Assembly (NCBI RefSeq): GCF_013371465.1
Contig: NZ_JABWDU010000002.1
Span: 785,666-849,665, forward strand
Length of the DNA stretch: 64,000 bases
Direction of reading: 5' to 3'
Origin: Ensifer oleiphilus
Lineage (GTDB): Bacteria > Pseudomonadota > Alphaproteobacteria > Rhizobiales > Rhizobiaceae
Part shown: positions 10,712 through 27,723 of the stretch, in pieces
Layout: each line of letters starts with the position of its first letter
Position numbering within the stretch: position 1 is the stretch's first letter
Notes under the pieces: generated by a model
The model's database searches: none
What the model saw: only the letters and a program-made list of their open reading frames with translations
Told to the model about the DNA's origin: nothing
Position numbers and translations under genes: made by a program

Positions 10712-10766
10712 GCTGGCATGGGGCTACCCACGCGGAGAGGGAACGCCCTCATCCACGTCGTGAGGC

Positions 10767-10936
10767 GCCCCTCATCCGCCCGCCGGCACCTTCTCCCCGT
10801 TCTGACGGGGAGAAGGGACAAACAGCAAGCTCCCGTTCCCATCTCCCGCCGGCCGGGCAAGGGGAAGCAAGGCCGGCGCCACACGTCCCTTCGCCCCGCA
10901 AGCGGGGAGAAGGTGGCCGGCAGGCCGGATGAGGGG
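10767..10936. repeat. RIME-like palindromic intergenic repeat
   Basis: The segment is bounded by GCCCCTCATCCGCC and its inverse GGCCGGATGAGGGG. Inside are CCTTCTCCCCG...CGGGGAGAAGG palindromes, here in two copies. The same words recur at 26131-26297, 49854-50000 and 60416-60597. They resemble the Rhizobium intergenic mosaic elements (RIME). The element sits inside the transporter operon between the binding-protein and permease genes. Confidence 0.8.
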
Positions 10937-10985
10937 CCTGCCTCGTCGCGCCGATGGGCAGACAAGACTGGTGAAATTCGAACGG

Positions 10986-11861
10986 ATGAACCTTATGCCT
11001 ATGGCAACGAACACGAAGAGAAACCTGGTGACGGCAGCGCTGGTGGCGCCGGCGGCGGCATGGCTGATGATCTTTCTCGTGCTGCCGTTCATCGCCATGC
11101 TGGTGTTCGCCTTCGGCGAGCGCGCGCCGGAAGGCGGCTATCAGGCGGCCTTTACCTTCGCCCAGTTTGCAAGACTTCCGACACGCGCGGCCGCCTTCTG
11201 GAACACGATGGTGCTGGCGCCGGTCGGTGCGCTCGTCTGCCTGCTTGTCGCCTACCCCGTCGCCTACTATCTCGCGGTCAAGTCCGATCCGCGCTACCGC
11301 CTGATCCTCGTGTCGCTGGTGGTCGTGCCCTTCTGGACGAGCCTGCTCGTGCGCACCTACGCCTGGATGTACATTCTCGGCTCGCGCGGCATTCCCAATC
11401 TGCTGTCGATGATCGGGCTTGAGGATGTGCGCCTGTTGAATACGCCCGGCGCCGTGCTGCTCGGCATCGTCTATGGCTACCTGCCGCTGATGATCATGCC
11501 GATCTATGTCAGCCTCGAAAAGCTCGATCGCCGACTGCTGGAAGCCTCGGCCGACCTCGGCGCAAGACCCGTGTCGACCTTCTTCGGCGTCACCCTGCCC
11601 CTGTCGCTGCCGGGCGTGATGACCGGCGTGGCGCTCGTCACCATCCTGCTGCTCGGCGAATACCTGATCCCGCAGCTTCTCGGCGGCGGCAAGGTCTTCT
11701 TCATCGGCAATGCGCTGGTCGATCTCTTCCTGCAATCGCGAAACTGGCCCTTCGGCTCGGCAATCGCCGTAACGCTGGTGGCCGTGGTCGTGGTGATCCT
11801 GATGGTGGCTATGCGCATCGCCTTCCGGGTCGCCGGCACAAGACAGGTGGATCTCGTCTGA
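10986..11861 (+). CDS. PotB-like ABC transporter permease
   Basis: A permease of about 291 residues with the PotB/PotH pattern. A first membrane helix (VAPAAAWLMIFLVLPFIAM) is followed by a periplasmic loop, then five further hydrophobic segments and the EAA coupling loop EASADLGARPVSTFFGV near residue 190. The start is uncertain: ATGs at 10986, 10995 and 11001 are all in frame and none has a strong ribosome site; the first is used here. An upstream extension would run into the RIME-like repeat. The stop overlaps the next gene's ATG (TGATG at 11859-11863). It forms the pore with the product of 11861-12679. Confidence 0.85.
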   Translation: MNLMPMATNTKRNLVTAALVAPAAAWLMIFLVLPFIAMLVFAFGERAPEGGYQAAFTFAQFARLPTRAAAFWNTMVLAPVGALVCLLVAYPVAYYLAVKSDPRYRLILVSLVVVPFWTSLLVRTYAWMYILGSRGIPNLLSMIGLEDVRLLNTPGAVLLGIVYGYLPLMIMPIYVSLEKLDRRLLEASADLGARPVSTFFGVTLPLSLPGVMTGVALVTILLLGEYLIPQLLGGGKVFFIGNALVDLFLQSRNWPFGSAIAVTLVAVVVVILMVAMRIAFRVAGTRQVDLV

Positions 11862-12679
11862 TGCGCACCTTCATCTCCTCGGTCTACATCTTCCTTTACG
11901 CGCCGATCGCACTCGTCGTCTTGTTCTCGTTCAATGCCGGACGCAGCGCCAGCGAGTTCACCGGGTTTTCGACCGCCTGGTACGGCAAGGCGCTCGGCAA
12001 TACCTTCCTGGTCTCGGCGCTGCAGAACAGCCTGATGATCGCCTTTACCAGCGCGACGCTCGCGGCAATCTTCGGCACCATGGCCGCACTCGGCATGGAG
12101 CGGCTGGCGCCGCGCAACCGCGCGATCTTCGATGCGCTCTTTGCAGCGGCCATCGTCGTTCCCGGCGTCGTCATCGGCATCGCCACGCTGGTGGCGCTCG
12201 TTGCCGTCTTTTCCTTCGTCAATCCGGCGCTGGCAACGATCTGGCCGGGTGACCAGCCGCCGCAGTTCGGGCTCGGCTATGGCTCGATCATTGCCGCCCA
12301 CGGCCTTTTCTCGATGGCGCTCGTCACCATGATCGTGAAAGCCCGCATCGCCAGCCTCGGACGCGATATCGTCGAGGCCTCAAGCGATCTCTATGCGACG
12401 CCGCTCACCACATTCCGGCTGATCGTGCTGCCGCAGATCCTGCCGTCGATCCTCGCCGGCTTCCTGCTCGCCTTCACTTTCTCCTTCGACGATTTCATCA
12501 TCGCCTTCTTCGTCGCCGGCTCGAAGACGACCTTGCCGATCTACGTCTTCGCCTCGATCCGCCGCGGCGTGACGCCCGAGATCAACGCGATCGCGACACT
12601 TGTGCTGGTCGCCTCGCTGCTCCTGATCCTGACCGCCCGCATCCTGATGCGGGATAAAAAACCGAAATCCGGGGAGTGA
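11861..12679 (+). CDS. PotC-like ABC transporter permease
   Basis: A 272-residue second permease of the PotC/PotI type. It begins MRTFISSVYIFLYAPIALVV, with a first helix ending in LFSFNAG, the usual YAPxxxLxxxSFN pattern. The EAA coupling loop EASSDLYATPLTTFRLIVLP is followed by FSFDDFIIAFFVAGSKTTLP, a diagnostic PotC segment. Translation is coupled to the first permease by the TGATG overlap, and four bases separate its stop from the SDR gene. With the ATPase at 8410 and the binding protein at 9551 it completes the importer. Confidence 0.88.
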   Translation: MRTFISSVYIFLYAPIALVVLFSFNAGRSASEFTGFSTAWYGKALGNTFLVSALQNSLMIAFTSATLAAIFGTMAALGMERLAPRNRAIFDALFAAAIVVPGVVIGIATLVALVAVFSFVNPALATIWPGDQPPQFGLGYGSIIAAHGLFSMALVTMIVKARIASLGRDIVEASSDLYATPLTTFRLIVLPQILPSILAGFLLAFTFSFDDFIIAFFVAGSKTTLPIYVFASIRRGVTPEINAIATLVLVASLLLILTARILMRDKKPKSGE

Positions 12680-12683
12680 ACAG

Positions 12684-13445
12684 ATGATCCTGAAAGACCG
12701 GGTCGCGATCGTGACCGGAGCGGGCTCCGGGATCGGAAAGGCGGGTGCTGCCATCATGGCACGCGAGGGCGCCCACGTCGTCATAATCGACCGCAGCGTC
12801 GAGGCGGGTAGCCTCACCGTCGACACCATTCGCGCCATGGGCGGCAAGGCCGAGGCTGTCACGCTCGACGTCACCGACGACGCGGCCCTTGCCGACGGCA
12901 TCGCCGACATCCTCTACCGCCACGGCCGCATCGATATCCTGCACAACCATGCCGGCGCGCAGGTTGCCGGCGATCTCGAAGGTGTCGAGATTTCCGGTTT
13001 CGACCGGTCCTGGAACCTCAACGTGCGCGCCCATTTCATGGCCGCCCGCCTGGTCATGCCGTCGATGAAGGCCGCCGGCCGCGGCGTCATCGTCAACACG
13101 TCATCGTCGTCGGGCGTGCTCTACGACCGCGAGATGATCGCCTACACCACGACCAAGCATGCCGTTATCGCCATGACCAAGCAGATGGCCGGCGACTACG
13201 CCCGCCACGGCATCCGCGTCAACGCGCTCTGCCCCGGCTGGGTCGATACCCCCTTCAACGACCCCTTCATCGCCCAGATGGGCGGCCGCGGCGCGATCGA
13301 AGCCTATATCCGCGAGAAGGTCCCGCTCGGCCGCTGGGCCAGCGTCGAGGAGATCGCCGAGTCGATCCTGTTTCTGGTGTCCGACCGCTCGTCCTACATG
13401 ACCGGTCAGATCCTGGTTGTGGATGGCGGCGAGACGGTGGTGTGA
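12684..13445 (+). CDS. short-chain dehydrogenase/reductase (SDR), NAD-type
   Basis: A 253-residue classical SDR. The cofactor loop TGAGSGIG is at residues 11-18 and Asp36 after the second strand favours NAD over NADP. The usual NNAG reads HNHAG (about 88-92), the serine block is NTSSSSG (138-144) and the catalytic pair is Tyr154/Lys158 (YTTTK). GRWASVEEIAESILFLVSD and TGQILVVDGG near the end are typical of the family. It starts 4 bases after the permease and is probably co-transcribed with the importer, so it may oxidise the imported compound or a product. It ends one base before the convergent urocanase-like gene. The substrate is not readable from sequence. Confidence 0.85.
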   Translation: MILKDRVAIVTGAGSGIGKAGAAIMAREGAHVVIIDRSVEAGSLTVDTIRAMGGKAEAVTLDVTDDAALADGIADILYRHGRIDILHNHAGAQVAGDLEGVEISGFDRSWNLNVRAHFMAARLVMPSMKAAGRGVIVNTSSSSGVLYDREMIAYTTTKHAVIAMTKQMAGDYARHGIRVNALCPGWVDTPFNDPFIAQMGGRGAIEAYIREKVPLGRWASVEEIAESILFLVSDRSSYMTGQILVVDGGETVV

Positions 13446-15107
13446 TCAGTCGAGCCTGAGATGCCCGATACCCTTGGCGGCGATCTCCTCGAAACTTTCG
13501 TCATAGCCCGCGTCCGCATAGCGGATAACACCGAGGGACGTATCGTTAGTGAGCGCATGATCCAGCCGCTCGTCGGCATCCGGCGTGCCGTCGGCAACCA
13601 CCGTCACGCCGCAACTCGTCATGTAGCCGGCATAACCTCCCCCGCCCGAATGGATGACGACGAGGTCGGCCATCGACGAGCAGAGCAGCATGGCATCGAG
13701 CAAGGGCCAGTCGGCGATGGCGTCCGATCCGTCCTTCATCCGCTCGGTCATGATGTTGGGATGGGCCATGGCGCCGGCATCGAGATGATCGCGCGAGAAG
13801 GCGACGGGTCCTTTCAGTTCGCCCGACGCCACCAACTCATTGACGCGCCGCGCCAGCGCCGTCCGCTCGCCATGGCCGAGCCAGGCGATACGCGCCGGCA
13901 ACCCTTCGAACGGGATGTGCTCGCGCGCAAGCCTGATCCAGTTGGTCACGATCCTGTTGTCCGGGAACATGTCGAGCAGCAGGTCGTCGATGCGGGCGAT
14001 GTCGCTCTCCTCGCCCGATAGTGCCATCCAGCGGAAAGGGCCGATGGCGCGGGCAAAAAGCGGGCGCAGATAGGCCTCGGTAAAGATCGGGATGTCGAAT
14101 GCGTTGGCGACGCCGCCGTCGCGCGCCTGCGTGCGGATCAGGTTGCCGTTGTCGAAGACTTCGGCGCCCTTTTTCTGGAAGTTGAGCATCGCAGTGACGT
14201 GCTCGACGATCGAGGCCCGGCTTGCGGCCATCAGTTGCCCTTGGCCGTCGTCGCGCAGGGATTTGACCTGATCGATCGTCATGCCCTTCGGCACGTAGCC
14301 ATAGACGAGATCGTGCGCCGAGGTCTGGTCGGTCACCACATCGGGCACGATGCCGCGTCTTGCGATCTCGGGATAGATCTCGGCGGCATTGCCGACGAGG
14401 CCTACGGAAAGCGCCCGCTTTTCCTTCACTGCCGCATCGATCATCGACAGTGCCGTGTCGAGATCCGGCGCGATCTCCTGGAGATAGCCGATGTCCCGGC
14501 GCTTCTTCGCCCGCTCCGCATCGATGTCGACACAGAGGATCGCAGCCCCTGCCATGCGGCCGGCAAGCGGCTGCGCCCCGCCCATGCCGCCGAGGCCCGC
14601 GGTCAGCACGAAGCGGCCTGAAAGATCGCCGCCGAACCGGCGCTCGGCGATGCGCATGAAGATCTCGTAGGTGCCCTGGATCACGCCCTGGCTGCCGATA
14701 TATTGCCAGGCGCCCGCCGTCAGCCCGCCCCAGCAGATCAGCCCCTTGCGCTGCAGCTCGTAGAAGACCTCGGCCTTTGCCCATTGCCCGACGATGTTGC
14801 AATTGGCCATGATCACCAGCGGCGCCTTGGCATGGGTCTTCAAGAGCCCCACCGGCTTGCCGGACTGGATGATCAGCGTCTGGTCCTCGTCCATCTCGGT
14901 GAGCGCCTTGACGATGGCGCGGTGCGCCGGCCAGTTGCGCGCCGCCTTGCCGAGGGCGGCATAGACGATGAGATTGTCCGGGTCTTCGCCGACGGAGAGC
15001 ACATTTTCGAGCAACCGCAGCAAGGCTTCCTGCCGCCACCCCTTGGCGCGCAGCTCCGGTCCGCCGGGGATCGGAAAATTCGGATGACGGGGGTTGGCCT
15101 TGGGCAT
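13446..15107 (-). CDS. urocanase-family hydratase lacking the signature cysteine (candidate thiourocanate hydratase)
   Basis: A 553-residue urocanase-family protein, normal in length, with the NAD-binding region GLGGMGGAQPLA and DQTSAHD. The start at 15107 follows GAGGAACGAGACG. Several active-site positions differ from canonical HutU: the signature FQGLPARICW reads FEGLPARIAW (Ala408 for the active-site Cys), LFCRGIGPFRW reads LFARAIGPFRW, HHGGGVG reads HSGGGGY, and HDPVHGY reads HDLVYGY. It lies downstream of a MIO-less lyase, a hydantoinase, a carbamoylase and a thiohydantoin-desulfurase-family gene. I infer it hydrates thiourocanate or a related product rather than urocanate. A plain urocanase annotation would be the default but fits the residues poorly. 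Confidence 0.8.
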   Translation of the reverse strand: MPKANPRHPNFPIPGGPELRAKGWRQEALLRLLENVLSVGEDPDNLIVYAALGKAARNWPAHRAIVKALTEMDEDQTLIIQSGKPVGLLKTHAKAPLVIMANCNIVGQWAKAEVFYELQRKGLICWGGLTAGAWQYIGSQGVIQGTYEIFMRIAERRFGGDLSGRFVLTAGLGGMGGAQPLAGRMAGAAILCVDIDAERAKKRRDIGYLQEIAPDLDTALSMIDAAVKEKRALSVGLVGNAAEIYPEIARRGIVPDVVTDQTSAHDLVYGYVPKGMTIDQVKSLRDDGQGQLMAASRASIVEHVTAMLNFQKKGAEVFDNGNLIRTQARDGGVANAFDIPIFTEAYLRPLFARAIGPFRWMALSGEESDIARIDDLLLDMFPDNRIVTNWIRLAREHIPFEGLPARIAWLGHGERTALARRVNELVASGELKGPVAFSRDHLDAGAMAHPNIMTERMKDGSDAIADWPLLDAMLLCSSMADLVVIHSGGGGYAGYMTSCGVTVVADGTPDADERLDHALTNDTSLGVIRYADAGYDESFEEIAAKGIGHLRLD

Positions 15108-15171
15108 CGTCTCGTTCCTCGTTGTTGTCTCTGCGGGCGTGCCCACTCATTCGTGGCACGGAAAAGGGCGG

Positions 15172-15290
15172 CCCCTCACCCTAGCCCTCTCCCCGCTGGC
15201 AGGGACGGCGCAATGCCTGCCACACGCACCGCGGATGGAAGCGGCCACGTCCCCTCTCCCCGCCTGCGGGGAGAGGGCTAGGGTGAGGGG
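15172..15290. repeat. RIME-like palindromic repeat
   Basis: The outer arms are CCCCTCACCCTAGCCCTCTC and its near-perfect inverse at 15265-15290, with an inner CTCCCCGCC...GGGGAG hairpin. The same arms recur at 36090-36129 and at the right ends of 26131-26297 and 60416-60597. It lies between the TfoX-N gene and the urocanase-like gene and may end or weaken the message between them. Confidence 0.75.
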
Positions 15291-15341
15291 CAATTCACCA
15301 CACACATCGGTAAGGGCCGATCAAACCCACCCGCCTCTCAT

Positions 15342-15671
15342 TCACTTCGGTGGCAGCGTCTCGACGAAGGCGAACGCCCCATCCAACAGCCGCTTGCGTA
15401 AGCGGTCGTCGCCATAGGCATTGGCGCCTGCCCGCACCCAACCATGCATCGCCCGACCGTTCATCACCATCAGCTCGATATCGGGCAGTGCCAGCGCCCA
15501 ACCGTCATTGCCTTTGCCGAGCCTGACCAGCAGCGATCCTTCGCGCGAACCCAGGAGCAGATTGCCATGAAGCAGAAACGCCCAGCCCCCGAACATCGCC
15601 TTTTCCGAGAGCCCGGCGCGATCGCCGAGCTCCTCCCGGATCAACTCTTCCAGCCCCGCATCGCGCGCCAT
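15342..15671 (-). CDS. TfoX N-terminal-domain protein
   Basis: A 109-residue protein made only of a TfoX N-terminal domain, recognised from EKAMFGGWAFLLHGNLLLGS followed by LLVRLGKGNDGWALALP and a C-terminal helix with GRAMHGWVRAG. Stand-alone TfoX-N proteins are common in rhizobia and their biochemical role is not known; this is not the full competence regulator TfoX/Sxy. The gene follows the DUF917 gene by 15 bases on the same strand, so it is probably part of the same transcript. It is then separated from the urocanase-like gene by a palindromic repeat. Any link to the catabolic pathway is unproven. Confidence 0.8.
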   Translation of the reverse strand: MARDAGLEELIREELGDRAGLSEKAMFGGWAFLLHGNLLLGSREGSLLVRLGKGNDGWALALPDIELMVMNGRAMHGWVRAGANAYGDDRLRKRLLDGAFAFVETLPPK

Positions 15672-15686
15672 GATCGTCTCCCGTGA

Positions 15687-16781
15687 TTACCGTCCAGCAA
15701 GCGCGTAGCGCGCAAGCTCGATGCCCATCGCTTTCTCCACCGAAGGGTAAACGCTCGGGTCGAGCACACTGGAGGCAAGCGGAATTACCGTCTTCGGCAC
15801 ATGCAGCACGAAGATCGTCATGCCCACCTGCAATTGCCCGACGCTCAAGGGTTCGCCCTCCGGCGACAGCGTGGTGATGACGTCGGGGAAGGTCGCAAGC
15901 CTCTCGCCTTCCGCAGAGTCAACCGCCATGTATTCGTTCATCACGTGCAATACGGTTGAGTCAGATCCCTTCCCCAACGTCACGGTGCCAATGTCGAAGG
16001 CTTCCTTGGTGTAGACCACCGACTTGTCGGTAATCACCCCTTCGGCAAGCAGCGCGCCATTGGTCGTCTTGACCATCGCATCGATTATGGCGCTGCCACC
16101 CTTTGCCTCGGCCGCGATGATCGCCTCGCCGAGCGCCAGCGCCAACGAGATACCGCCGAGCGCCGCATTGTCCCTGACATAGGAGGCCCGCACCGGATTG
16201 CGGCAGGAGGCGATGAAGCCGCCGGACATGTCCGACGCCGTGCGCAGGATCGGCGAGACCTTGGCTGTGGCACCACGCACCACCAACTCGATATAGCGGT
16301 TCTCGTCGCGGTTTCCGCCGACGGCCGTCTGGATCATCGGTTCGGGCGAGCCGGCAAGGCCGATCGAGCCCATGTCGCCGGTCGGATGCGCCCGGATGTC
16401 GCCGACGGCATCGACCACCTTGGTGCCGAGGATCGCCGACGGCAGCCAGCCGTTCAGCGTCGAGGACTTGCCGTTCTGGCCGATGATCAGCCCGGAAAGC
16501 TTTTCGCCCAGCGCCTCCTGCAGAAGCTGCACCGCCTTGACATAGTCGACGCCGCGCATTTCCCAGGGGGTGGTCGAGGCGGGCGCGCCGATAGCAGCCG
16601 CCGTCGCCACCCAGTCGTTCGCGTCCAGTTCGTCGATCGATACCAGCTCCGGCTTGCCGATCGAGACGGCGGCATAGCCGAGCATGCGGCCGTGGTCGGC
16701 CCAGCCGCCACCGCCCGCGGCATAGACGGAGCCGCCCTTGACCGCTGCCTCGACATCCGTTTCCTTGAGTATCCGGCCCAT
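15687..16781 (-). CDS. DUF917 / S-methylthiohydantoin desulfurase-family protein
   Basis: A 364-residue protein of the DUF917 family, now described in Pfam as S-methyl-thiohydantoin desulfurase N and C domains. The recognisable opening is VKGGSVYAAGGGGWADHGRM; later marks are GDMGSIGLAGSPEPM and the C-terminal half with VITDKSVVYTKEAFDIGTV. Family knowledge says such enzymes remove the C2 sulfur substituent of a thiohydantoin ring to give a hydantoin. It sits one base downstream of the M20 carbamoylase and near a hydantoinase, so the set could convert a thiohydantoin-propionate to N-carbamoyl-glutamate and then glutamate. The family match is good; the reaction here is inferred from the neighbours. 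Confidence 0.82.
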   Translation of the reverse strand: MGRILKETDVEAAVKGGSVYAAGGGGWADHGRMLGYAAVSIGKPELVSIDELDANDWVATAAAIGAPASTTPWEMRGVDYVKAVQLLQEALGEKLSGLIIGQNGKSSTLNGWLPSAILGTKVVDAVGDIRAHPTGDMGSIGLAGSPEPMIQTAVGGNRDENRYIELVVRGATAKVSPILRTASDMSGGFIASCRNPVRASYVRDNAALGGISLALALGEAIIAAEAKGGSAIIDAMVKTTNGALLAEGVITDKSVVYTKEAFDIGTVTLGKGSDSTVLHVMNEYMAVDSAEGERLATFPDVITTLSPEGEPLSVGQLQVGMTIFVLHVPKTVIPLASSVLDPSVYPSVEKAMGIELARYALAGR

Positions 16782-16782
16782 C

Positions 16783-18054
16783 TTATCCCTTCTCCTGCAA
16801 GCGTTTGTCGAGCCTCTTCACCGCTTCGAAGAGAACGGCAGCCCCGAGCGCAATGTCGTCATTTTCCGCCCATTCTTCCGGCGCATGCGAGCGCCCGCCG
16901 AGGCACGGGATGAAGATCATCGCCGAGCGGGTGATGCGCCCCATCCAGGCGGTGTCGTGGCCGGCACCGGACGCCATGCGCCGGTGCCTGGCGCCGATCC
17001 CGTCGCAGCTTTCTTCCAGTGCCAACAGCAGAAGCGGGTCGCCGGGCGTTGGGGGATTGTCGGAAATCACATTGGCAGGCGCGATCGTCACGCCGGCGGC
17101 TTCGGCGATGTCAAGGCAAAGCGGTCGAAGCTCGGCGAGGAACCGCTCCATCTGTGACCGCAACTCGGCGCGGGCGTCGATGAGCAGGCGCACCTTCGAG
17201 GGAACGACATTGGCCGCATTCGGTTCGATCGAGAACTCGCCAACCGTCGCCGTGAAATGCCCCTCGCCCCTGGAAAATTCCGTCGCGAGCCGTTCGATCG
17301 CGAGCACCAGCCGCGAGGCTGCGACAAGCGCGTCGCGGCGGTGGCCCATCGGCGTCGTGCCGGCATGATCCGCCTGGCCCTCGACGACGATCTCGATGCG
17401 GGTGATACCGGAAATGGCGGTGACGACGCCAATGTCCAGTCGCCCCGTCTCCAGCACCGGCCCCTGCTCGATATGCAGTTCCAGAAACGCCTTGATGTCG
17501 GAGCGCTTCAGTGCTGAAAGCCGTGACGGATCGCCGCCGACTTCGACGATGCCCTGCCGCAGGCTCAATTCGCCCTGCACCCGGCTCAGCCAGCCATCCG
17601 GCAGGATGCCGGCCATGCCGCGGCTGCCGACGCAGGAAACGCCGAAGATCGACACTTCCTCCGCCAGGAAGTCGACGATCTCCAGATCATGGTCGAGTTC
17701 GATGCCGGCATCCGAAAGCGCACGCGCCACCTCGAGGGCCGCTGCGACACCGGCAATGCCGTCGAAGCGGCCGCCCTCCGGCACCGTGTCGGAATGCGAG
17801 CCCAGCATCAGCGTGCCCAGCGCCGATTTTCGCCCCTTGCGCCGGCCGATGAGATTGCCGGCGGCATCGATCCGTGTCTCCAGGCCGGCCGCGCGGAAGC
17901 GGCGATCGAGGAACGCTCGGCCCTCCAGGAACAGAGGCGTGAAGGCGCGCCTCGTATAGGGCCGATCCGGCTCGGTGATACCCGCAAGCCCGTTGACGAT
18001 GCCGGCGATCCGGCCCGCATCTACGGGCAAATTGGTCTTGACGCTGGTGCTCAT
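16783..18054 (-). CDS. M20-family Zn amidohydrolase (N-carbamoyl-L-amino-acid hydrolase type)
   Basis: A 423-residue member of the allantoate amidohydrolase/N-carbamoyl-amino-acid hydrolase group. The di-zinc ligands are visible in order: LGSHSDTVPEGGRFDG (His, Asp), AEEVSIFG (Glu pair), LHIEQGPVLE (His) and, in the C-terminal part, SGAGHDTAWM (His). The lid domain occupies about residues 215-330 (GQADHAGTTPMGHRRDA). Its start overlaps the preceding amidohydrolase gene by 4 bases and the DUF917 gene follows after one base, so translation is coupled. In this setting it probably hydrolyses N-carbamoyl-L-glutamate to glutamate, CO2 and ammonia. Allantoate is an alternative, but no other purine genes are nearby. 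Confidence 0.85.
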   Translation of the reverse strand: MSTSVKTNLPVDAGRIAGIVNGLAGITEPDRPYTRRAFTPLFLEGRAFLDRRFRAAGLETRIDAAGNLIGRRKGRKSALGTLMLGSHSDTVPEGGRFDGIAGVAAALEVARALSDAGIELDHDLEIVDFLAEEVSIFGVSCVGSRGMAGILPDGWLSRVQGELSLRQGIVEVGGDPSRLSALKRSDIKAFLELHIEQGPVLETGRLDIGVVTAISGITRIEIVVEGQADHAGTTPMGHRRDALVAASRLVLAIERLATEFSRGEGHFTATVGEFSIEPNAANVVPSKVRLLIDARAELRSQMERFLAELRPLCLDIAEAAGVTIAPANVISDNPPTPGDPLLLLALEESCDGIGARHRRMASGAGHDTAWMGRITRSAMIFIPCLGGRSHAPEEWAENDDIALGAAVLFEAVKRLDKRLQEKG

Positions 18055-19430
18055 CGGGCCTCCTGCAGGGCCAGGGTCTGAAGCGGGCGAACGAATGCGC
18101 CGGTGCCGGGCTTGGCAACGACAGTCCGTCCGTCAAACGCAAGCGCACCCCGCAGATAGGTGGCAGACACCCGCCAGGGCAGCCGGATTCCGTTATAGGG
18201 CGACCAGTCGACGACATTGTTGCCGCTAGTCGCCGCATCGTAAGTGTAGGGCTCCGGCGTCATGACGATGATGTCAGCATCCTTGCCGACTTCGAGCGCA
18301 CCCTTGCAATGGTCGAGCCGGAAATGCCGTGCCGGGTTCAGCGTCATCAGCTCGGCCGCCCGCGTCAAAGGGATGCCGCGCTCCAGCGCGCCCTTGATGA
18401 AGAGCGGCACCATCACTTCGAGGCCCGGCACGCCGGAGGCGTTGGCGAGCATATCCGGGTTGGTCTTGCGATCCTCCGACCAGCTGACGTGATCGGTCGA
18501 AACCATCGTCACCGTGCCGTCGGCCACATGCCGCCAGAGCTTTTCCACCTCGGCGCGCGGCCGGATCGGCGGGTTGATCTTGGCCTTGCCGCCGAGCTGG
18601 CGCACGTCGTTCTCCTCGTCCAGCGTCAGGTAGTGAATGCAGCACTCGATCGTCGCCGCGTGGCCCTGGGCGCGGTAGGCGGCGGCGATCTCGTAGCCGC
18701 GGCCGAGCGAGCAGTGCACCACATGCGCCGGGCATCCGGTCACAGCGCCAGTCTCGTAGATCTGGTTGGTCGCCAGCAGCTCCGTCAGCGGCGGGCGGGA
18801 CAGGCCGTGGGCGCGATAGTCGGCAATGCCCGAAGCCTTGACCCTTTCGATCGCGGCGCGCACCGCCTCGTCATCCTCGTTGTGAACGCCTGCGGCCAGT
18901 CCCGTCGGCGCGATCGCGCGAAAGCAATCCTCGAGCAGGGCTGCAGGAATACGCGGAAAGCGCTTGGGATCGGTGCCGAAGGTGGAGAACTTGAAGGCTG
19001 CGACGCCGGCCTCGACCATTTCGAGGATGCGGGCCGGTCCCTCCTCGGGATCGACGGTGCCGTAGAGTGCGAAGTCGACGCGCGCCTGCGGGCTCGCATG
19101 CTCCACCTTGTAGGCAACCGCCTCGGCCGAGCAGACCAGATTGCCCTCGTCATAGGGCATGTCGACGATCGTGGTCACGCCACCGGCCGCAGCCGACCGC
19201 GTCGACCAGACGAAATCCTCCTGGTTTTTCTGCGACAGCGAATGCACCTGCGCATCGACGGCGCCGGGCAGGATCATCGCGGTTCCGAGATCGTGGCGTT
19301 CACGGGCTGCGGGTGCGGCCCCCTGCCCGACATGCACGACCTTGCCGTCGCGCACCGCCACATGCCCGCCCTCGACGATCCGGTGCGGAAGGACAACGGT
19401 GCCTTTCAGGACAAGATCGAAATCGGACAT
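18051..19430 (-). CDS. dihydropyrimidinase/hydantoinase-like cyclic amidohydrolase
   Basis: A 459-residue amidohydrolase-superfamily protein near the usual hydantoinase length. The N-terminal beta-sandwich strand is FDLVLKGTVVLPHRIVEGG. Metal-site positions are the carbamylated lysine (AAFKFSTFG), histidines in GVHNEDD and HVVHCSLG, and the catalytic aspartate in VSTDHVSW. The normally invariant HxH of strand 1 (DxHxH) reads DAQVH, so the first histidine is glutamine (CAG). That may change the metal centre. The gene follows the MIO-less lyase and overlaps the M20 carbamoylase. I infer it opens a hydantoin ring such as hydantoin-5-propionate; allantoinase or dihydroorotase activity is less likely given the context. 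Confidence 0.82.
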   Translation of the reverse strand: MSDFDLVLKGTVVLPHRIVEGGHVAVRDGKVVHVGQGAAPAARERHDLGTAMILPGAVDAQVHSLSQKNQEDFVWSTRSAAAGGVTTIVDMPYDEGNLVCSAEAVAYKVEHASPQARVDFALYGTVDPEEGPARILEMVEAGVAAFKFSTFGTDPKRFPRIPAALLEDCFRAIAPTGLAAGVHNEDDEAVRAAIERVKASGIADYRAHGLSRPPLTELLATNQIYETGAVTGCPAHVVHCSLGRGYEIAAAYRAQGHAATIECCIHYLTLDEENDVRQLGGKAKINPPIRPRAEVEKLWRHVADGTVTMVSTDHVSWSEDRKTNPDMLANASGVPGLEVMVPLFIKGALERGIPLTRAAELMTLNPARHFRLDHCKGALEVGKDADIIVMTPEPYTYDAATSGNNVVDWSPYNGIRLPWRVSATYLRGALAFDGRTVVAKPGTGAFVRPLQTLALQEAR

Positions 19431-19472
19431 CGTGCTCTCCCCTCGGATCAGGCTTGCTGGATCAGCCTTGCA

Positions 19473-21011
19473 TCACTTACCCAGCGCAAAGAAGTCGTCG
19501 AACTCCGGCATCGGCGCCATTGAAACGAAGGTGCGCAAGAGGTCATGGCAGGTAAAGGCCTGCTGCAGCGCCTCGATCTCCTTCGAAAGCGGCCGGTCCT
19601 TGATGTACATCGGGCTGATCGAGCGGGTGCGCTCATGCGCAAGCTTGACGATCCCCTGCGGCGCGTCGCCGACGAGGTCGATCGCCTGCGACGAAAGGAT
19701 CGCCTCGATCGCCGCCAGCTGCCGGAGGTCCCGCACCTGCGTTTCCATGCGCTCGACGATCAAGGGCAGGAAGGTCGCCTCCTCCTCCAGCCCGCCGGCA
19801 ACGACGATCGACTGGGCTGAAAGCGGCACGGCCATCGACTGCACGCGCATGTAAAGTTCGACCGCAAGCTTCATCAGTGGGCCAAGACCAGTCGCGACTT
19901 CGCCCGGTGCCACCAGGTTGACCGGAAGATTGCGGCGTCCGCCGTTCGACAGAAGGATGCAGCGGTTGAGCACGTTGCGCGCCACATGCGAAAAGGCGAT
20001 CTGCGCCGTCTCGACATAGAGGGTCGTGGTCAAGGGCAACGATGCGCCCGACGCATGCACCTGGCCGCCGAGCACCACCGGATTGTCGTCGGAGAGATAG
20101 GTCGCCTCGACCAGCCGGCCGGCCCCCACCAGCAGAGTATCGACGACAGCGCCGAACACCTGGGCGGTCATGCGCAGGCTCAAGGGATCGTGGATCGCCG
20201 TCGGCAAGGGCCAGTCGGCAACGCCGGACTGGCCGTAGAGCCAGGAGCCGACCAGCGCCTCGCCGCGCGTCGACAGCGTTGCGGCCACCCGCCACGGATC
20301 GGCCGAGGCGCCGAGCGCCTGCGACGACATCACGCCCGTGACCAGCAGCACGCGGATGGCCGCTGCGGCCTCGCGCAGCACGTCGGCCGCCGCAGAATAG
20401 GCGATCGCGTTGACGCTGAGGGCGGCCAGCGCATCGCGTGGCCGCATCACCAGGGGGGAAAGTCCGGCATCGGCCAGTGCCGTTTCGGCCGGCACCAGCC
20501 GGCCGCGATGATAGGCTTCGCCGACCCCGGTCAGGACGGCGGCGATCTGCCCCATCAGCCCGATGTCGGCGCAGCCCATCGAGCCATGGCGGCGCACCGC
20601 CGGAATGATGTCGTGTTCGATCAGCGCGAGAAAGGCCGTGATCAGCTCGGGACTGCATCCCGTGTGCCCGCGCATCGCGGTGTTGCAGCGAATGGCGATT
20701 GCCTTGCGCACGATCGGCACCGTGAAGAACTCGCCGGTGCCGAAATGATGGGCGCGCACCAGAGACGTGTTGAACTCGGCCAGATCGTCGGCCGTCCAGA
20801 GCCGGTCCTTCATCGATCCGACGCCGGTGTTGGAGCCGTAAACCGGCAGGCCGAGCGCGACGCGATCGGCAATCACCTTGTGGGCAGCCGCAACCCGCTC
20901 CATGCCGCCCTCGTCCGCGACCGGCCGCGCAACACCCGAGCCGATTTCCTCGAGCGTCGCGAAGTCGAGCGGTTTCCCGCACAGAACGATGGACTTGACC
21001 TGTTGCAGCAT
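19473..21011 (-). CDS. HAL/PAL-family lyase without MIO triad (candidate ergothionase-type betaine lyase)
   Basis: A 512-residue protein of the aromatic amino acid lyase fold. The catalytic tyrosine loop YGSNTGVG is intact (Tyr58), and the later GGRRNLPVNLV and GLEEEATFLPLIVERM segments match the family layout. Where histidine ammonia-lyase has GSVGASGDL, whose Ala-Ser-Gly cyclises into the MIO cofactor, this protein has GSMGCADIGL (Cys147-Ala148-Asp149), so MIO cannot form. Ergothionase, a relative that eliminates trimethylamine from ergothioneine, uses acid/base catalysis; a trimethylammonium leaving group would not need MIO. It is the first gene of the minus-strand cluster, 42 bases before the hydantoinase. 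The substrate is probably ergothioneine or a related histidine betaine. Confidence 0.82.
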   Translation of the reverse strand: MLQQVKSIVLCGKPLDFATLEEIGSGVARPVADEGGMERVAAAHKVIADRVALGLPVYGSNTGVGSMKDRLWTADDLAEFNTSLVRAHHFGTGEFFTVPIVRKAIAIRCNTAMRGHTGCSPELITAFLALIEHDIIPAVRRHGSMGCADIGLMGQIAAVLTGVGEAYHRGRLVPAETALADAGLSPLVMRPRDALAALSVNAIAYSAAADVLREAAAAIRVLLVTGVMSSQALGASADPWRVAATLSTRGEALVGSWLYGQSGVADWPLPTAIHDPLSLRMTAQVFGAVVDTLLVGAGRLVEATYLSDDNPVVLGGQVHASGASLPLTTTLYVETAQIAFSHVARNVLNRCILLSNGGRRNLPVNLVAPGEVATGLGPLMKLAVELYMRVQSMAVPLSAQSIVVAGGLEEEATFLPLIVERMETQVRDLRQLAAIEAILSSQAIDLVGDAPQGIVKLAHERTRSISPMYIKDRPLSKEIEALQQAFTCHDLLRTFVSMAPMPEFDDFFALGK

Positions 21012-21220
21012 GCCGAAAATACCCTACCGCGCGGTGCGCCTCGACGCCGAAACGATGCGTGGATGCAAAGACTTGATGCGATCCGCTCCTTTGGACGAGG
21101 GATTGCCTTTCAGCATGCTATGCGGTTTGCCCGTTCGCGTGATATATCCCAAATCCTGAACGGGAGATGCCAAAGGTTGAACGCCAATGTGACGACCATG
21201 GCAGCGGGAGGATTTGCGCC
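21012..21220. promoter_or_regulatory. divergent promoter region of the lyase cluster and LysR gene
   Basis: A 209-base region from which the minus-strand catabolic cluster (from 21011) and the plus-strand LysR gene (from 21221) diverge. An AT-rich patch GATATATCC at 21141-21149 is the best -10-like element. I see no LysR T-N11-A dyad that I would trust. Divergence itself supports control of the cluster by the LysR protein. Confidence 0.5.
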
Positions 21221-22417
21221 ATGGATATCGCCACGATCCTGCTCGTCGAGGCCGTGATGAATGAAGGCGGCATTCGGCGCGCTGCCACCTCTCGCGGTCG
21301 CGCGCCATCGAGCGTCAGCGCCGCCGTTCGCCGCTTCGAGCAGGCCGTTTCGATACCGCTTTTCCGCCGCGATGGCGGCCTCATGGCCCTGACCCTGGAG
21401 GCCCGCGCGCGTCAGGCCGATGTGGCCGAGGCTGCTACCACCATCCGCGCGGTGCTCGCCAAAAGCAGCGGGGAACCGACGACCGCCATTCCGGCCGTCG
21501 GCCTTGTCGCGCTCGATCGGTTCGTACGGATCGCGCACGCCGGCAGCATCCGAGCCGCTGCCCGCACTCTCGGCCTCGGTCAACCGCAACTGACGCGGCA
21601 GATCGCCGACCTCGAACGCCATCTGCAATGCCTGATGTTCGAGCGGTCGCATGGCGGGATCGCCTGCACGCCGATTGCTCTTGAGATCCTCCCCGAGATC
21701 GAGCGCCTGCTCGACACCTGGGCCCGGCTGACCCGCGCGTCTGCCGACCGATTCCGCCGCGACGTTACCACCTGGCGGCTCGGCGCCGTCATGCCGCTCG
21801 GGCCGGAAAGCGAGATTGCCCGCATGCTGGCGGCATTGACGGCCACCTGGCACCGCTCCCGTCCCAGGCAATCCCTGTTCATTTCCAGCACCACTGCTGA
21901 TGAGCTTCTGGCCGGTCTCAAGAGCCGGCGCTTCGATGCAGCCCTCCTCGATATCGCCGGCATCCCGCCTGATTTGGACGGCCGGCTCGTGACCGAAACG
22001 CCGCTGGTACTTGCCGGCCCGGCACCGGCATTATCGGAGATGGGCGGCGATATCCCGCGGCTGCTCGCCACCTGCCCCATCGCCGTGCCGAGCGCCCGCA
22101 GCGGCCTTCGTCGCGAGGTCACCCGCTTTCTCGAAGACACGCTCAGCGATGCCGAGCGCCGCCGGGTGACGCTGGTCGAAGTCGATTCCATCCCCGTCAT
22201 CATCAACCTCGTCAGCCATCACGGCTATCTCTCAGTGCTGCCGGAAACGTCGCTGTCGCGCATCCATCGCCCCCCGGCGATGATCCGGCTGGGAGCCCAG
22301 TACCGCCAGTCGCTGACGCTGATCTGGCCGCGCGGCGCCTTTTCCAGCGAGGTTGGCGACCTGATGATCGGCATGATGAAGACGGGCCCGCAAGCGACGA
22401 CAACCATGCCGGCGTGA
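21221..22417 (+). CDS. LysR-type regulator with two tandem HTH domains
   Basis: A 398-residue regulator, about 95 residues longer than a usual LysR. Two successive LysR-type winged helices are visible. Residues about 3-60 (ILLVEAVMNEGGIRRAATSR, then PSSVSAAVRRFEQAVSIPLF) form the first. Residues about 92-150 (ALDRFVRIAHAGSIRAAART, then QPQLTRQIADLERHL and MFERSHGG) form the second. The effector domain follows to the end. The ATG at 21221 has GGGAGGA nine bases upstream. It is divergent from the lyase cluster and is its likely regulator. The effector could be the substrate or thiourocanate, which is inference. Confidence 0.85.
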   Translation: MDIATILLVEAVMNEGGIRRAATSRGRAPSSVSAAVRRFEQAVSIPLFRRDGGLMALTLEARARQADVAEAATTIRAVLAKSSGEPTTAIPAVGLVALDRFVRIAHAGSIRAAARTLGLGQPQLTRQIADLERHLQCLMFERSHGGIACTPIALEILPEIERLLDTWARLTRASADRFRRDVTTWRLGAVMPLGPESEIARMLAALTATWHRSRPRQSLFISSTTADELLAGLKSRRFDAALLDIAGIPPDLDGRLVTETPLVLAGPAPALSEMGGDIPRLLATCPIAVPSARSGLRREVTRFLEDTLSDAERRRVTLVEVDSIPVIINLVSHHGYLSVLPETSLSRIHRPPAMIRLGAQYRQSLTLIWPRGAFSSEVGDLMIGMMKTGPQATTTMPA

Positions 22418-22549: not shown

Positions 22550-23587
22550 TCAGGCTTGGCCATTCGATTTCGCCTTGCCGATCGCTCCATCCGTCGAGCG
22601 TGTACGATCCTCGGCACCATGGCCAAGCTTCAGCCGGCGACGCGTCTCGCTCGGGCTTTCGCGGTAGTGCGCGCGGTAACTGCGCGAGAAGGACGATGAC
22701 GAGTTGAAACCGGAGATCGCGGCGATATCGGCAAACTCCATGCGCGTCTCGATCACCTTGCGCCGGGCCGCGTTGAGCCGCAGCGCCAGGTAATGTTCAT
22801 GCGGCCCCACCCCCATCGTATCGCGAAACAGGTCCTGCAGATGGCGGACGCTGACGCCGATGCGGCGGGCGAGGCGCGCGAGCGTCAACGGCGCTTCCAC
22901 CGTTTCCTCCATCAGCTTGACGGCGGCGCCGACGCGGGGGTCGAGGATGCGCATGTTGCCGATCGCCGGCATCTGCAGGAGATCGCCGCGGGTGCGCTCT
23001 TGCTCGTAGATGAACAGCCGGGACACTTCGAGCGCCAGCGAATAGCCGTGCGCCCGGCGGATCAGTTCCAGCATCAGGTCGAGCGTCGGCAGCGATCCAC
23101 CTGTCGTGATGCGCTTGCCATCGATGACGAAGCGTTCGCGCACCATGGTCACCTGCGGATAGCTGGCGGTGAAATCCTCGAAATCCTCCCAGTGGGTGGT
23201 GGCCCTGGACGTATCGAGCAGGCTGGTTTCGGCCAGCAGCCAGGAGCCGGATTCGATGCCCGCCATCAGCTCGCGGTGCCGCGCCGTCTGCGACAGCATC
23301 ATCTTCAATTGCGAGGTGGCGCTGCGCTGCCAGTTGTAGCTTGAGAGAATGAACAGCGGCGCCGTCTCGCGTTGCGGCCGGAAGGCGCCGGAGACGGGAA
23401 TAGGAATGCCGCTTTTTGTCTCGATCGGCTCGCCGTCAGGGCTGTAGATCGTCCAGTCATAGAGCGGCCTCCCGGCGATGCGGTTGGCGGCGCGCATCGG
23501 CTCGATAACCGAGGCAACCAGGATCAGATTCGTCTCCGGCAGCACCAGGATATCGACGTGCTGCACCTGCGAAACGTTCTGATCCAT
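22550..23587 (-). CDS. cdhR: GATase1-like AraC regulator (CdhR/GbdR type)
   Basis: About 345 residues. Residues about 10-185 form a DJ-1/PfpI-like domain (VDILVLPETNLILVASVIEP, then GIESGSWLLAETSLLD), and residues about 225-320 are an AraC double helix-turn-helix (LTLARLARRIGVSVRHLQDL and FADIAAISGFNSSSSFSRSY). This domain pair is typical of CdhR and GbdR, which respond to carnitine and to glycine betaine/dimethylglycine. It is divergent from the carnitine genes at 23696 onward, as cdhR is from cdhCAB in Pseudomonas, so a carnitine-responsive activator is the best call. The ATG at 23587 is used; a TTG two codons upstream is possible. The start-to-start gap to the BKACE gene is 108 bases. Confidence 0.82.
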   Translation of the reverse strand: MDQNVSQVQHVDILVLPETNLILVASVIEPMRAANRIAGRPLYDWTIYSPDGEPIETKSGIPIPVSGAFRPQRETAPLFILSSYNWQRSATSQLKMMLSQTARHRELMAGIESGSWLLAETSLLDTSRATTHWEDFEDFTASYPQVTMVRERFVIDGKRITTGGSLPTLDLMLELIRRAHGYSLALEVSRLFIYEQERTRGDLLQMPAIGNMRILDPRVGAAVKLMEETVEAPLTLARLARRIGVSVRHLQDLFRDTMGVGPHEHYLALRLNAARRKVIETRMEFADIAAISGFNSSSSFSRSYRAHYRESPSETRRRLKLGHGAEDRTRSTDGAIGKAKSNGQA

Positions 23588-23695
23588 CTGCAAACTTCTC
23601 CACCCCGTTGCCGATAATGTACAATCTGGAACCGATTATGAAAAGCAGCGCCGTCGTTCTTGGCTCGTAATGGCCTCAATAAAAGGGAGACAGCA
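23588..23695. promoter_or_regulatory. divergent promoter region, AraC regulator / carnitine genes
   Basis: The 108 bases between the two divergent starts include a comparatively AT-rich core (CCGATAATGTACAATC at 23611-23626). The plus-strand ribosome site AAAAGGGAGA lies at 23681-23690. No known CdhR consensus could be matched by eye. Confidence 0.4.
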
Positions 23696-24598
23696 ATGCC
23701 GCTCAGCATGAACCGCGAGGTATTCATCACCTGTGCCGTCACCGGCTCAGGAGACACCGTTTCAAAGTCCAGCCATGTTCCGATCACGCCGAAACAGATC
23801 GCCGAAGCGGCGGTCGAGGCGGCCAAGGCAGGCGCTGCCGTGATCCACTGCCATGTTCGCGATCCGGAGACCGGAGCCCCCTCCCGCAGGCTTGACCTCT
23901 ACCGCGAAGTCACCGACCGCATCCGCTCCGCCGATATCGACATCGTCTTGAACCTGACGGCCGGCATGGGCGGAGACCTGGTGTTCGGCAATGTCGAGAG
24001 CCCCTTGCCCGTCAACGAGAAATTCACCGACATGGCCGGCGCCACCGAGCGTGTCGCCCATGTGGCCGAATGTCTGCCGGAGATCTGCACGCTCGACTGC
24101 GGCACCATGAACTTCTCGCTCGGCGACTACGTCATGACCAACACGCCGTCGATGCTGCGCGAAATGGCGCGACAGATGACGGCGCTCGGTGTGCGCCCGG
24201 AGATCGAGGCCTTCGACACCGGCCATCTCTGGTTCGCAAAGCAGCTCGCCGAGGAAGGCCTGATCGAGGATCCGGTGCTGATCCAGCTCTGCATGGGAAT
24301 CCCATGGGGCGCGCCCGACGATCTCAACACCTTCATGGCCATGGTCAACAACGTGCCTGCCAACTGGACCTTCTCGGCCTTCTCCATCGGCCGCAATGCG
24401 CTCGCCTATCCGGCAGCAGCAGTCCTTGCCGGCGGCAACGTTCGCGTCGGCCTCGAAGACAACCTCTACATCGGCAAGGGCCAGCTCGCGACCAACGGCG
24501 CGCTCGTCGAAAAGGCGGTCGGCGTCATCGAGGGCATGGGCGCCAAGATCATCGGGCCGGATGAGGTCCGCAAGAAACTGAAGCTGACAAAGCGCTGA
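23696..24598 (+). CDS. cdhC: beta-keto acid cleavage enzyme (BKACE), dehydrocarnitine:acetyl-CoA type
   Basis: A 300-residue BKACE (DUF849) TIM-barrel protein. The zinc-binding HxH lies in IHCHVRDPETG near residue 52; TCAVTGSGDT near the start and AFDTGHLWFAKQL are further family marks. BKACE enzymes use zinc and acetyl-CoA to cleave a beta-keto acid. In the carnitine route they turn 3-dehydrocarnitine plus acetyl-CoA into betainyl-CoA and acetoacetate. The ATG at 23696 follows AAAAGGGAGA. It is immediately followed by the carnitine dehydrogenase-thioesterase gene and divergent from a CdhR-like regulator, which makes the carnitine assignment stronger than for most BKACEs. Confidence 0.88.
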   Translation: MPLSMNREVFITCAVTGSGDTVSKSSHVPITPKQIAEAAVEAAKAGAAVIHCHVRDPETGAPSRRLDLYREVTDRIRSADIDIVLNLTAGMGGDLVFGNVESPLPVNEKFTDMAGATERVAHVAECLPEICTLDCGTMNFSLGDYVMTNTPSMLREMARQMTALGVRPEIEAFDTGHLWFAKQLAEEGLIEDPVLIQLCMGIPWGAPDDLNTFMAMVNNVPANWTFSAFSIGRNALAYPAAAVLAGGNVRVGLEDNLYIGKGQLATNGALVEKAVGVIEGMGAKIIGPDEVRKKLKLTKR

Positions 24599-24609
24599 GC
24601 GGGGATATC

Positions 24610-26100
24610 ATGAGCCAGATCAAGAATGCAGCCTGCGTCGGCGGCGGTGTTATCGGCGGCGCCTGGGTGGCACGCTTCGCGCTTGCCGGCATCGACGTAA
24701 AAATCTTCGATCCGCATCCGGAAGCCGAGCGCATCATCGGCGAAGTCATGGCCAATGCCGAGCGCGCCTATGCCATGCTGACCATGGCGCCACTGCCGCC
24801 CAAGGGAAAACTCATCTTCTGCAAAAGCATCGAGGAAACCGTCAAGGACGCTGATTGGATTCAGGAAAGCGTGCCCGAGCGGCTGGAGCTGAAGCGCGGT
24901 GTCATCACCCAGATCGACGCGGCGGCACGGCCCGACGCGCTGATTGGCTCGTCGACTTCGGGCCTGCTACCGTCCGATCTGCAGGCCGAGATGAAGCATC
25001 CCGAACGCATGTTCGTGGCGCATCCCTATAACCCTGTCTACCTTCTGCCGCTGGTCGAACTCGTCGGCGGCAAGAAGACCTCGAAGACGACGATCGAGCG
25101 CGCCATGCTCGGCGTCGAGCAGATCGGCATGAAGGGCGTCGTCATCGCCAAGGAGATCGAGGCCTTCGTCGGCGACCGCCTGCTCGAAGCGCTCTGGCGC
25201 GAGGCGCTGTGGCTGATCCAGGACGACATCTGCGATACCGAGACGCTCGACAACGTCATGCGCTATTCCTTCGGCATGCGCTGGGCGCAGATGGGCCTGT
25301 TCGAGACCTACCGCATCGCCGGCGGCGAAGCCGGCATGCGCCACTTCCTCGCCCAGTTCGGCCCGTGCCTCAAATGGCCGTGGACCAAGTTTACCGACGT
25401 GGTCGATCTCGACGATGCGCTGGTGGAAAAGATCGGCGCCCAGTCGGATGCGCAGGCCGCTGGCCGCTCGATCCGCGAGCTTGAGCGCATCCGCGACGAA
25501 AACCTGGTCGGCATCATGCACGCGCTGAAATCGGGCAATGGCGGCGAAGGCTGGGGCGCTGGCAAGCTGCTCGCCGATTTCGAGGCCAAGCTCTGGGCCA
25601 ATGCCAAGAAGCCTGAAGCGGACCTGGGCGACGTCAAGCCGCTGCACATTCTCGACACCAAGGTCAGCGCTGCCTGGGTCGATTATAACGGCCACATGAC
25701 CGAGCATCGTTACCTCCAGGTGTTCGGGGATACTTCCGACGGCCTGTTGCGCCTGATCGGCGTCGACCTCGAATACGTCCGCGACGGCCACAGCTACTAT
25801 ACGGTCGAGACCCATATCCGCAATCTCGGCGAGGCCAAGCTCGGCGATGCGCTCTATTCGACCTGCCAGCTCCTGTCCTCGGACGAAAAGCGCCTGCATC
25901 TGTTCTCGACGATCTACAATGCCGCGACGAAGGAAGCGGTCGCCACCGCCGAGCAGATGATGCTGCACGTCGACAGCAAGGCCGGCAAGTCGGTCGCAGC
26001 ACCTGCCAAGGTGCTCGACAAGCTGAAGGCGATCACCGAGGCGCATGCAGGTCTGCCGACGCCCGAAGGCGCCGGACGGTTCGTCGGCCAGAAGCGCTGA
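24610..26100 (+). CDS. lcdH: L-carnitine 3-dehydrogenase fused to betainyl-CoA thioesterase
   Basis: A 496-residue fusion. Residues 1-320 are a 3-hydroxyacyl-CoA-dehydrogenase-like unit: the NAD loop CVGGGVIGGAW at about 9-19, GSSTSGLLPSDLQ, HPYNPVYLLPLVELVGG and the C-terminal helical part with RWAQMGLFETYRIAGGEAGM. Residues about 335-470 are a hot-dog thioesterase (AAWVDYNGHMTEHRYLQVF). The dehydrogenase oxidises carnitine to 3-dehydrocarnitine, and the thioesterase releases glycine betaine from betainyl-CoA after BKACE action. The same fusion is known in Sinorhizobium meliloti carnitine metabolism, whereas Pseudomonas has separate cdhA and cdhB. It starts 11 bases after the BKACE stop. Confidence 0.9.
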   Translation: MSQIKNAACVGGGVIGGAWVARFALAGIDVKIFDPHPEAERIIGEVMANAERAYAMLTMAPLPPKGKLIFCKSIEETVKDADWIQESVPERLELKRGVITQIDAAARPDALIGSSTSGLLPSDLQAEMKHPERMFVAHPYNPVYLLPLVELVGGKKTSKTTIERAMLGVEQIGMKGVVIAKEIEAFVGDRLLEALWREALWLIQDDICDTETLDNVMRYSFGMRWAQMGLFETYRIAGGEAGMRHFLAQFGPCLKWPWTKFTDVVDLDDALVEKIGAQSDAQAAGRSIRELERIRDENLVGIMHALKSGNGGEGWGAGKLLADFEAKLWANAKKPEADLGDVKPLHILDTKVSAAWVDYNGHMTEHRYLQVFGDTSDGLLRLIGVDLEYVRDGHSYYTVETHIRNLGEAKLGDALYSTCQLLSSDEKRLHLFSTIYNAATKEAVATAEQMMLHVDSKAGKSVAAPAKVLDKLKAITEAHAGLPTPEGAGRFVGQKR

Positions 26101-26130
26101 CTGCGCCAAAGCGGGCAATGTCGGGCGACG

Positions 26131-26297
26131 GCCCCTCATCCCGCTGCCGCGACCTTCTCCCCGTAGACGGGGAGAAGGGATCTGCCGCAACCGCTCGTTC
26201 CTTCAAAGGTCGCAGCGGTTCTTGATGGCCGAGACGGTGCGATACTCGAGAGGCATCCCCTCTCCCCGCCTGCGGGGAGAGGGTTAGGGTGAGGGGC
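26131..26297. repeat. RIME-like palindromic repeat
   Basis: It starts GCCCCTCATCCCGCTGCC, contains CCTTCTCCCCG...CGGGGAGAAGG, and ends with a second palindrome CCCCTCTCCCC...GGGTTAGGGTGAGGGG. It is a composite of both palindrome types found in this window. It separates the two carnitine degradation genes from the acyl-CoA dehydrogenase gene on the same strand. Confidence 0.8.
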
Positions 26298-26367
26298 AGG
26301 ACAGGCATGCCAGCGGCCGATGGGGAGATCGGCCACCGGCACGCAGACAGAACGCGAGGGAGAACAC

Positions 26368-27710: not shown

Positions 27711-27723
27711 AGTGCACGTCCGC

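Follow-up and report, generated by a model that had tools for sequence, protein, structure and literature searches.

A probable ergothioneine catabolic operon with a distant lyase and a divergent tandem-HTH LysR gene in Ensifer oleiphilus

A five-step bacterial catabolism of ergothioneine was reportedly described in 2021 by Beliaeva, Leisinger and Seebeck in ACS Chem. Biol., the original enzymes including ones from Paenibacillus. Here we analyze a gene cluster at positions 13446 to 22417 of a stretch of 64,000 nucleotides from Ensifer oleiphilus (genome of 6.76 Mb; G000:C22:785666-849665; hereafter the window), which, judged from its sequence, is very probably an ergothioneine catabolic operon leading from the fungal antioxidant ergothioneine to glutamate. 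The cluster has the same five enzyme classes as the five-step route, four of them over the NCBIfam models of that route, and differs from it in being alphaproteobacterial, in its distant lyase and in a LysR-type regulator with two helix-turn-helix (HTH) domains. Fungi and actinobacteria produce ergothioneine, which plants and animals acquire from soil and food (PMC7653990). A BLAST survey of 2026 concluded that ergothionase is restricted to a few genera, with the warning that it did not count divergent homologues (PMC13405746); the lyases described here form a divergent group of that uncounted kind, and complete gene sets occur in Rhizobiaceae and in several other alphaproteobacterial families. 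The pathway as such is already known; we found no published account of the lyase group in Alphaproteobacteria, the tandem-HTH regulator or the operator. Among the papers listed in our searches, judged by title and start of abstract, none dealt with an operon for ergothioneine degradation in Alphaproteobacteria or with its regulator, and none with a tandem-HTH LysR; subscription journals were mostly outside the reach of these searches, and absence is accordingly weak. The signature columns, operator and importer family given below would allow ergothioneine degradation capacity to be counted better.

The five enzyme open reading frames (ORFs) and the LysR ORF lie where an earlier note on this DNA had placed them, with the enzymes on one strand and the regulator divergent; a sixth, small ORF with a TfoX_N domain, between the desulfurase and hydratase genes, was missing from its list. 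Pfam domains across the cluster are Urocanase (three domains), S-Me-THD N and C, Peptidase_M20, Amidohydro_1, Lyase_aromatic and LysR. Proteins were scored with NCBIfam 20.0, in which each model has its own cut-off and which holds equivalog models of the ergothioneine route. Four minus-strand enzymes passed such models: the urocanase homologue, a predicted thiourocanate hydratase (13446..15107; NF058530, 1062.1 bits, cut-off 930), the predicted thiohydantoin desulfurase with the DUF917/S-Me-THD fold (15687..16781; NF058529, 599.7 bits, cut-off 440), the predicted N-carbamoyl-L-glutamate amidohydrolase ErtE of the M20 family (16783..18054; NF058540, 601.3 bits, cut-off 520) and the predicted hydantoin-5-propionate amidohydrolase ErtD (18051..19430; NF058538, 792.3 bits, cut-off 600). 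The 3' end of ErtD overlaps the start of ErtE by 4 bases, and the hydratase ORF is open from a GTG at 15146, with the ATG at 15107 the likelier start. This gene content and these scores are direct readings of the window; from the families so named we infer every reaction.

The hydratase has its best Protein Data Bank (PDB) match in 7ned (820.5 bits), which we take to be a characterized thiourocanate hydratase and which its PDB record labels urocanate hydratase. It reads HSGGGGYAGYMTS at the position where nine compared urocanases read HHGGGVG(M/I)G(F/Y)S, and 48 alignment columns were identical across 12 hydratase-type proteins (our own, 7ned and ten picked from loci, including L118 and L119, which have no score on the thiourocanate model) and different in the nine urocanases. 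The altered active site that the earlier note had seen in this protein is thus borne out. That note had also offered S-methyl-ergothioneine as a substrate, in which case the DUF917 enzyme would free methanethiol. The S-methyl route does use the same folds for its hydratase and DUF917 protein (NF058531, NF058532), but both cluster proteins scored far below the S-methyl cut-offs (745.3 of 880 for the hydratase and 282.7 of 450 for the desulfurase), which leaves this substrate highly unlikely.

The fifth enzyme, a lyase without 4-methylideneimidazole-5-one (MIO) encoded at 19473..21011 on the minus strand, is a predicted ergothionase (ergothioneine trimethylamine-lyase) of an alphaproteobacterial subfamily. 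Its motif is GSMGC-ADIGLM, whereas the MIO lyases aligned with it have GSVGASGDLAPL at this place; it therefore lacks the Ala-Ser-Gly triad that gives MIO, in keeping with the earlier note, which had called it MIO-less. Set beside characterized enzymes, as that note had advised, the lyase was closest both by sequence and by fold to the Treponema denticola ergothionase 6s7j, with which it shares the MIO-less histidine ammonia-lyase (HAL) fold and eight alignment columns, among them Lys381 and Ser199, that differ in four MIO lyases. These columns were picked on the same 8 and 4 sequences that display them; among sequences added later, the Burkholderia arboris lyase has seven of the eight and the lyase of genome G1061 has four. 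Lyases in several Ensifer and Sinorhizobium records are 97 to 99% identical to the one in the window, which places the genome close to Ensifer adhaerens. From its sequence we predict a distant version of ergothionase that is easily mistaken for a histidine enzyme.

Such a mistake is present in existing records. The earlier note had warned that automatic annotation would call the cluster histidine utilization, and relatives in PLSDB are indeed named hutH or aromatic amino acid ammonia-lyase, urocanate hydratase and DUF917 protein. The warning did not hold for NCBIfam 20.0, which ranks the thiourocanate model above hutU and names four of the five enzymes, so that only the lyase escapes correct naming. 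A diverged histidine, hydantoin, allantoin or pyrimidine pathway would share these folds and labels; the hydratase is over the hutU model (TIGR01228, 695.9, cut-off 375), and ErtE is over the broad hydantoinase/carbamoylase model TIGR01879 (331.2, cut-off 204) and scores higher on an unspecific Zn-dependent hydrolase model (NF009531, 685.7, cut-off 486) than on its own. We nevertheless consider such a pathway close to refuted by the sequences: the MIO triad is absent, the 48 columns shared by the urocanases are replaced, the lyase reached 192.6 of the 539.15 needed for hutH (TIGR01225), and ErtD stayed under the cut-offs for allantoinase (278.2) and dihydropyrimidinase (207.3). A canonical hutH and an ordinary urocanase are carried on another contig of the same genome. 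As far as sequence allows, the outcomes that the earlier note had named as fatal to its proposal, a true histidine lyase or an origin in allantoin or pyrimidine breakdown, did not appear.

With four enzymes passing pathway models and the lyase resembling ergothionase in sequence, fold and columns, the ergothioneine pathway that the earlier note had proposed is well favored. The lyase would take trimethylamine off ergothioneine by a MIO-independent elimination to give thiourocanate, to which the hydratase, with its urocanase fold, would add water to give thiohydantoin-5-propionate. The DUF917 desulfurase would free sulfide to leave hydantoin-5-propionate, ErtD would open the ring to N-carbamoyl-L-glutamate, and ErtE would release L-glutamate, CO2 and ammonia. 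From ergothioneine made by fungi and other bacteria, the cell would obtain nitrogen, carbon and sulfur. The operon, presumably one transcript answering to an inducer, would be switched by the tandem-HTH LysR as it reads a direct repeat with a 21-bp period that precedes the lyase gene.

This LysR-type regulator is encoded divergently at 21221..22417 on the plus strand and has two N-terminal HTH_1 stretches (PF00126). Its ORF is open from an ATG at 21167; by start context the ATG at 21221 is the likelier start, with 209 bases between it and the lyase start, and the alignment of many relatives begins at residue 19. Two HTH domains were present in 62 of 65 collected LysR rows, which count our own protein and some loci twice; the exceptions were a fragment (L085) and two copies of a protein of G040 with one HTH. 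The regulator of Paracoccus aminophilus likewise has two.

The predicted operator is a conserved direct repeat with a period of 21 bp, CGTTCAACCTTTGGCATCTCCCGTTCAGGATTTGGGATATA, at 21143..21183 on the minus strand, with the copies GTTCAGGATTTGGGATAT and GTTCAACCTTTGGCATCT lying 21 bases apart at 21144-21161 and 21165-21182; in the window, these two are the only sites within 2 mismatches. Intergenic regions in front of the lyase were compared for our own locus and 51 of 56 related loci (L063, L064, L077, L085 and L087, in which the lyase match begins atypically, were left out), and TTGGGATAT occurred in 51 of these 52 regions, L089 being without it. Their consensus displays both halves of the repeat; mean self-identity reaches 0.52 at a shift of 21, compared to 0.14 to 0.40 for the remaining shifts between 8 and 29. 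In the 36 genomes with a hydratase over the cut-off, the core TGTTCNNNNTTTGGGATATC gave 62 sites at up to 2 mismatches, and all 10 perfect sites and three of the four one-mismatch sites lie 60 to 179 bases upstream of the lyase, the fourth standing before ErtD in G1061. The 48 two-mismatch sites were divided between 7 before the lyase and 41 elsewhere; as a reversed control pattern gave only 7 sites in total, some of the 41 may be genuine. A site within 2 mismatches precedes the lyase in 20 of the 31 genomes with a lyase of the window's type; the other 11 lack one, some having weaker copies. In our own genome, a pattern ending in A matched the lyase site with 1 mismatch; with 3 mismatches it matched 15 sites, five of which are copies of one sequence, compared to 5 sites for the control pattern. 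The core is also found upstream of lyases in other families. No site of the core was present anywhere in G891, G927 and G086, the single site of G646 is on another contig, and the best places in a 41-base scan of L119 and L122 were not before the operon. The repeat itself is an observation; as a predicted operator near the lyase it is well supported by these sequence comparisons, and it would be the binding site of the LysR protein.

The gene order is conserved as well. In the 56 loci, which come from Rhizobiaceae genera or Rhizobiales and are biased to lyase carriers since the lyase was the query, 54 keep all five enzymes on one strand and in unchanged order, which argues that the arrangement is not due to chance. 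Of the two exceptions, L055 stops short of the hydratase, and L085 gave no ErtD match covering 60% of its length; LysR is present in 55 of the loci. A hydratase over the thiourocanate cut-off was found in 5 of 385 genomes of a class sample, 6 of 398 of a phylum sample and 32 of 396 of an order sample; our own genome is counted in each, and 36 distinct genomes remain after pooling. A lyase of the window's type (P0005-type, E about 1e-76 or better) is present in 31 of these 36, at most 12 kb from the hydratase in 29; in the other two, G940 and G1038, it sits on a separate contig.

Several observations weigh against the reading as an ergothioneine operon. The lyase passed no NCBIfam cut-off and no curated ergothionase model. 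Its identity to 6s7j is only 26%; the former MIO alanine is Cys in the window lyase and Glu in 6s7j, and positions 324 and 411 are Ser and Glu where 6s7j keeps Phe and His. The tree puts the alphaproteobacterial lyases on one branch and 6s7j on another, and it groups other MIO-less lyases with the HALs; because it is unrooted and has long branches, it does not demonstrate a single origin of the lyases. Beyond the nearest relatives, identity among the lyases drops to 34 to 55%, compared to about 57 to 90% for the other four enzymes, so that the lyase substrate could vary. Five of the 36 hydratase genomes (G086, G646, G891, G927 and G1061) are without a P0005-type lyase. In our own genome, the OsmF-type protein lies outside the operon, with an 81% identical copy on another contig, and the Pot-like importer beside the cluster resembles polyamine systems. 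The natural substrate might also be ergothioneine sulfonate, on which lyase and hydratase would act with release of sulfite rather than sulfide. The ergothionase of T. denticola accepts the sulfonic acid too. Yan et al. (ACS Catal., 2022) reportedly described a pathway for ergothioneine sulfonate; the survey PMC13405746 cites that work for an ergothionase of Agrobacterium radiobacter, likewise of the Rhizobiaceae. Since the hydratase and desulfurase pass models named for thiourocanate and thiohydantoin, we provisionally regard the sulfonate as an improbable natural substrate and keep ergothioneine as the favored one.

Lyases of other kinds, or none, accompany some of the clusters. A different MIO-less lyase is near the cluster of G1061, and G927 has a MIO-less lyase with a different signature on another contig; in G646 (E 0.001) and G891 (E 1e-20), the sole lyase match carries the MIO triad. 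In G086 (L098, 6814-12997), a MIO-bearing lyase adjoins the desulfurase and a hydratase that scores 963 bits, above the cut-off of the thiourocanate model; the substrate of this lyase could be a thiohistidine with a free amino group. The G646 cluster consists of LysR, an ABC importer with an SBP_bac_3 binding protein, ErtD, desulfurase and hydratase, and in this genome, complete by its statistics, we found no ErtE in the stretch and no P0005-type lyase. On plasmid pAMI4 of Paracoccus aminophilus, the order is LysR-ErtD-ErtE-desulfurase-hydratase with TRAP transporter genes two genes on; this set recurs on pCSC3H3 of Thalassospira marina, where a UbiD-family gene and TRAP genes come after it (plasmid sequence only in both cases). 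L099, L119 and L122 are Ert clusters in stretches without a P0005-type lyase, two of them near TRAP genes, and their hosts are possible thiourocanate scavengers.

TRAP systems often carry organic acids, and thiourocanate is an organic acid; therefore, a core that degrades thiourocanate, with separable lyase and betaine importer, suggests itself as a hypothesis. Tentatively, and with rather less than even confidence, we propose that the conserved unit, ErtD-ErtE-desulfurase-hydratase, may be an operon for thiourocanate rather than for ergothioneine. Its tandem-HTH LysR would bind the 21-bp direct repeat, which spans two turns, and would sense thiourocanate or a later product. As parts of this same proposal, the lyase would be a fast-evolving front end coupled to an OpuAC/OsmF betaine importer, and lyase-less clusters near TRAP or other transporters would import thiourocanate leaked by ergothioneine degraders. 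If so, there would be cross-feeding on thiourocanate in soil and sea, which becomes testable, and two-HTH LysR regulators would be a distinct operator-reading class.

An importer is part of related clusters. Relatives in other families have an ABC importer between lyase and ErtD, and its binding protein was of the OpuAC type in the three examined (L179, L183 and L106); both importer binding proteins tested pass the OsmF model. The bacterial ergothioneine importer EgtU is described in PMC9732360; the L179 (G855) binding protein matches EgtUC structures at about 92 to 98 bits but matches glycine-betaine proteins (485 to 504 bits) and OsmF (361 bits) far better. Among 18 genomes hand-picked from the 36, an OsmF-type protein was matched at E 1e-20 in 12 of the 13 that carry the P0005-type lyase, G662 being the exception, and also in G1061; the 4 others gave no match (Fisher P of 0.002 on the 13 and 4, kinship not corrected for).

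Beside the cluster in the window, a Pot-like ABC importer with a short-chain dehydrogenase/reductase (SDR) gene at 8326-13445 is a possible importer for the operon. As a demonstrated member of the cluster it was rejected: the genes are convergent with the operon and polyamine-type by NCBIfam and PDB matches, and no operator copy within 2 mismatches precedes them in the window. With flanks limited, its binding protein is present in 14 and the SDR in 29 of the 56 loci.

Further MIO-less HAL homologues were encountered. The L104 lyase of our own genome (G000:C29:33096-34550) lacks the MIO triad (GSVGY, gap, LTHA) and has an ABC ATPase gene close by; we rejected it as a second ergothionase, since it is without the Lys and Ser columns and keeps the Asn-Gly-Thr of HALs. 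L170, L173, L175 and G611:C1:24307-26703 read GSIGA-(A/G)DL, with the lysine kept and Arg replacing a conserved His. A lyase match of about 30% lies some 0.3 kb from an OsmF-type protein in G1016 (L175) and G611, and these lyases perhaps act on other betaines. On a Microvirga ossetica plasmid (L120), homologues of desulfurase, ErtD and ErtE accompany flavin reductase and racemase genes, with the hydratase not beside them; this set perhaps belongs to a different thiohydantoin or hydantoin route.

On the other side of the cluster lie carnitine genes for a GbdR-like AraC regulator, BKACE and carnitine 3-dehydrogenase (22550-26100), which adjoin it in 54, 54 and 53 of the 56 loci, respectively. 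They were set aside as a neighbor because they belong to a different betaine pathway. From 22550 to 30580, the window has carnitine catabolic genes and then acyl-CoA genes, so that two trimethylammonium pathways adjoin. Within the cluster, the TfoX_N ORF (15342..15671, minus strand; PF04993, 31.8 bits, cut-off 30.1) was found in 33 of 56 related loci and is probably a passenger. The gap between it and the hydratase gene (15170-15300) contains a GC-rich stretch that, by eye, is inverted-repeat-like and resembles a dispersed intergenic repeat.

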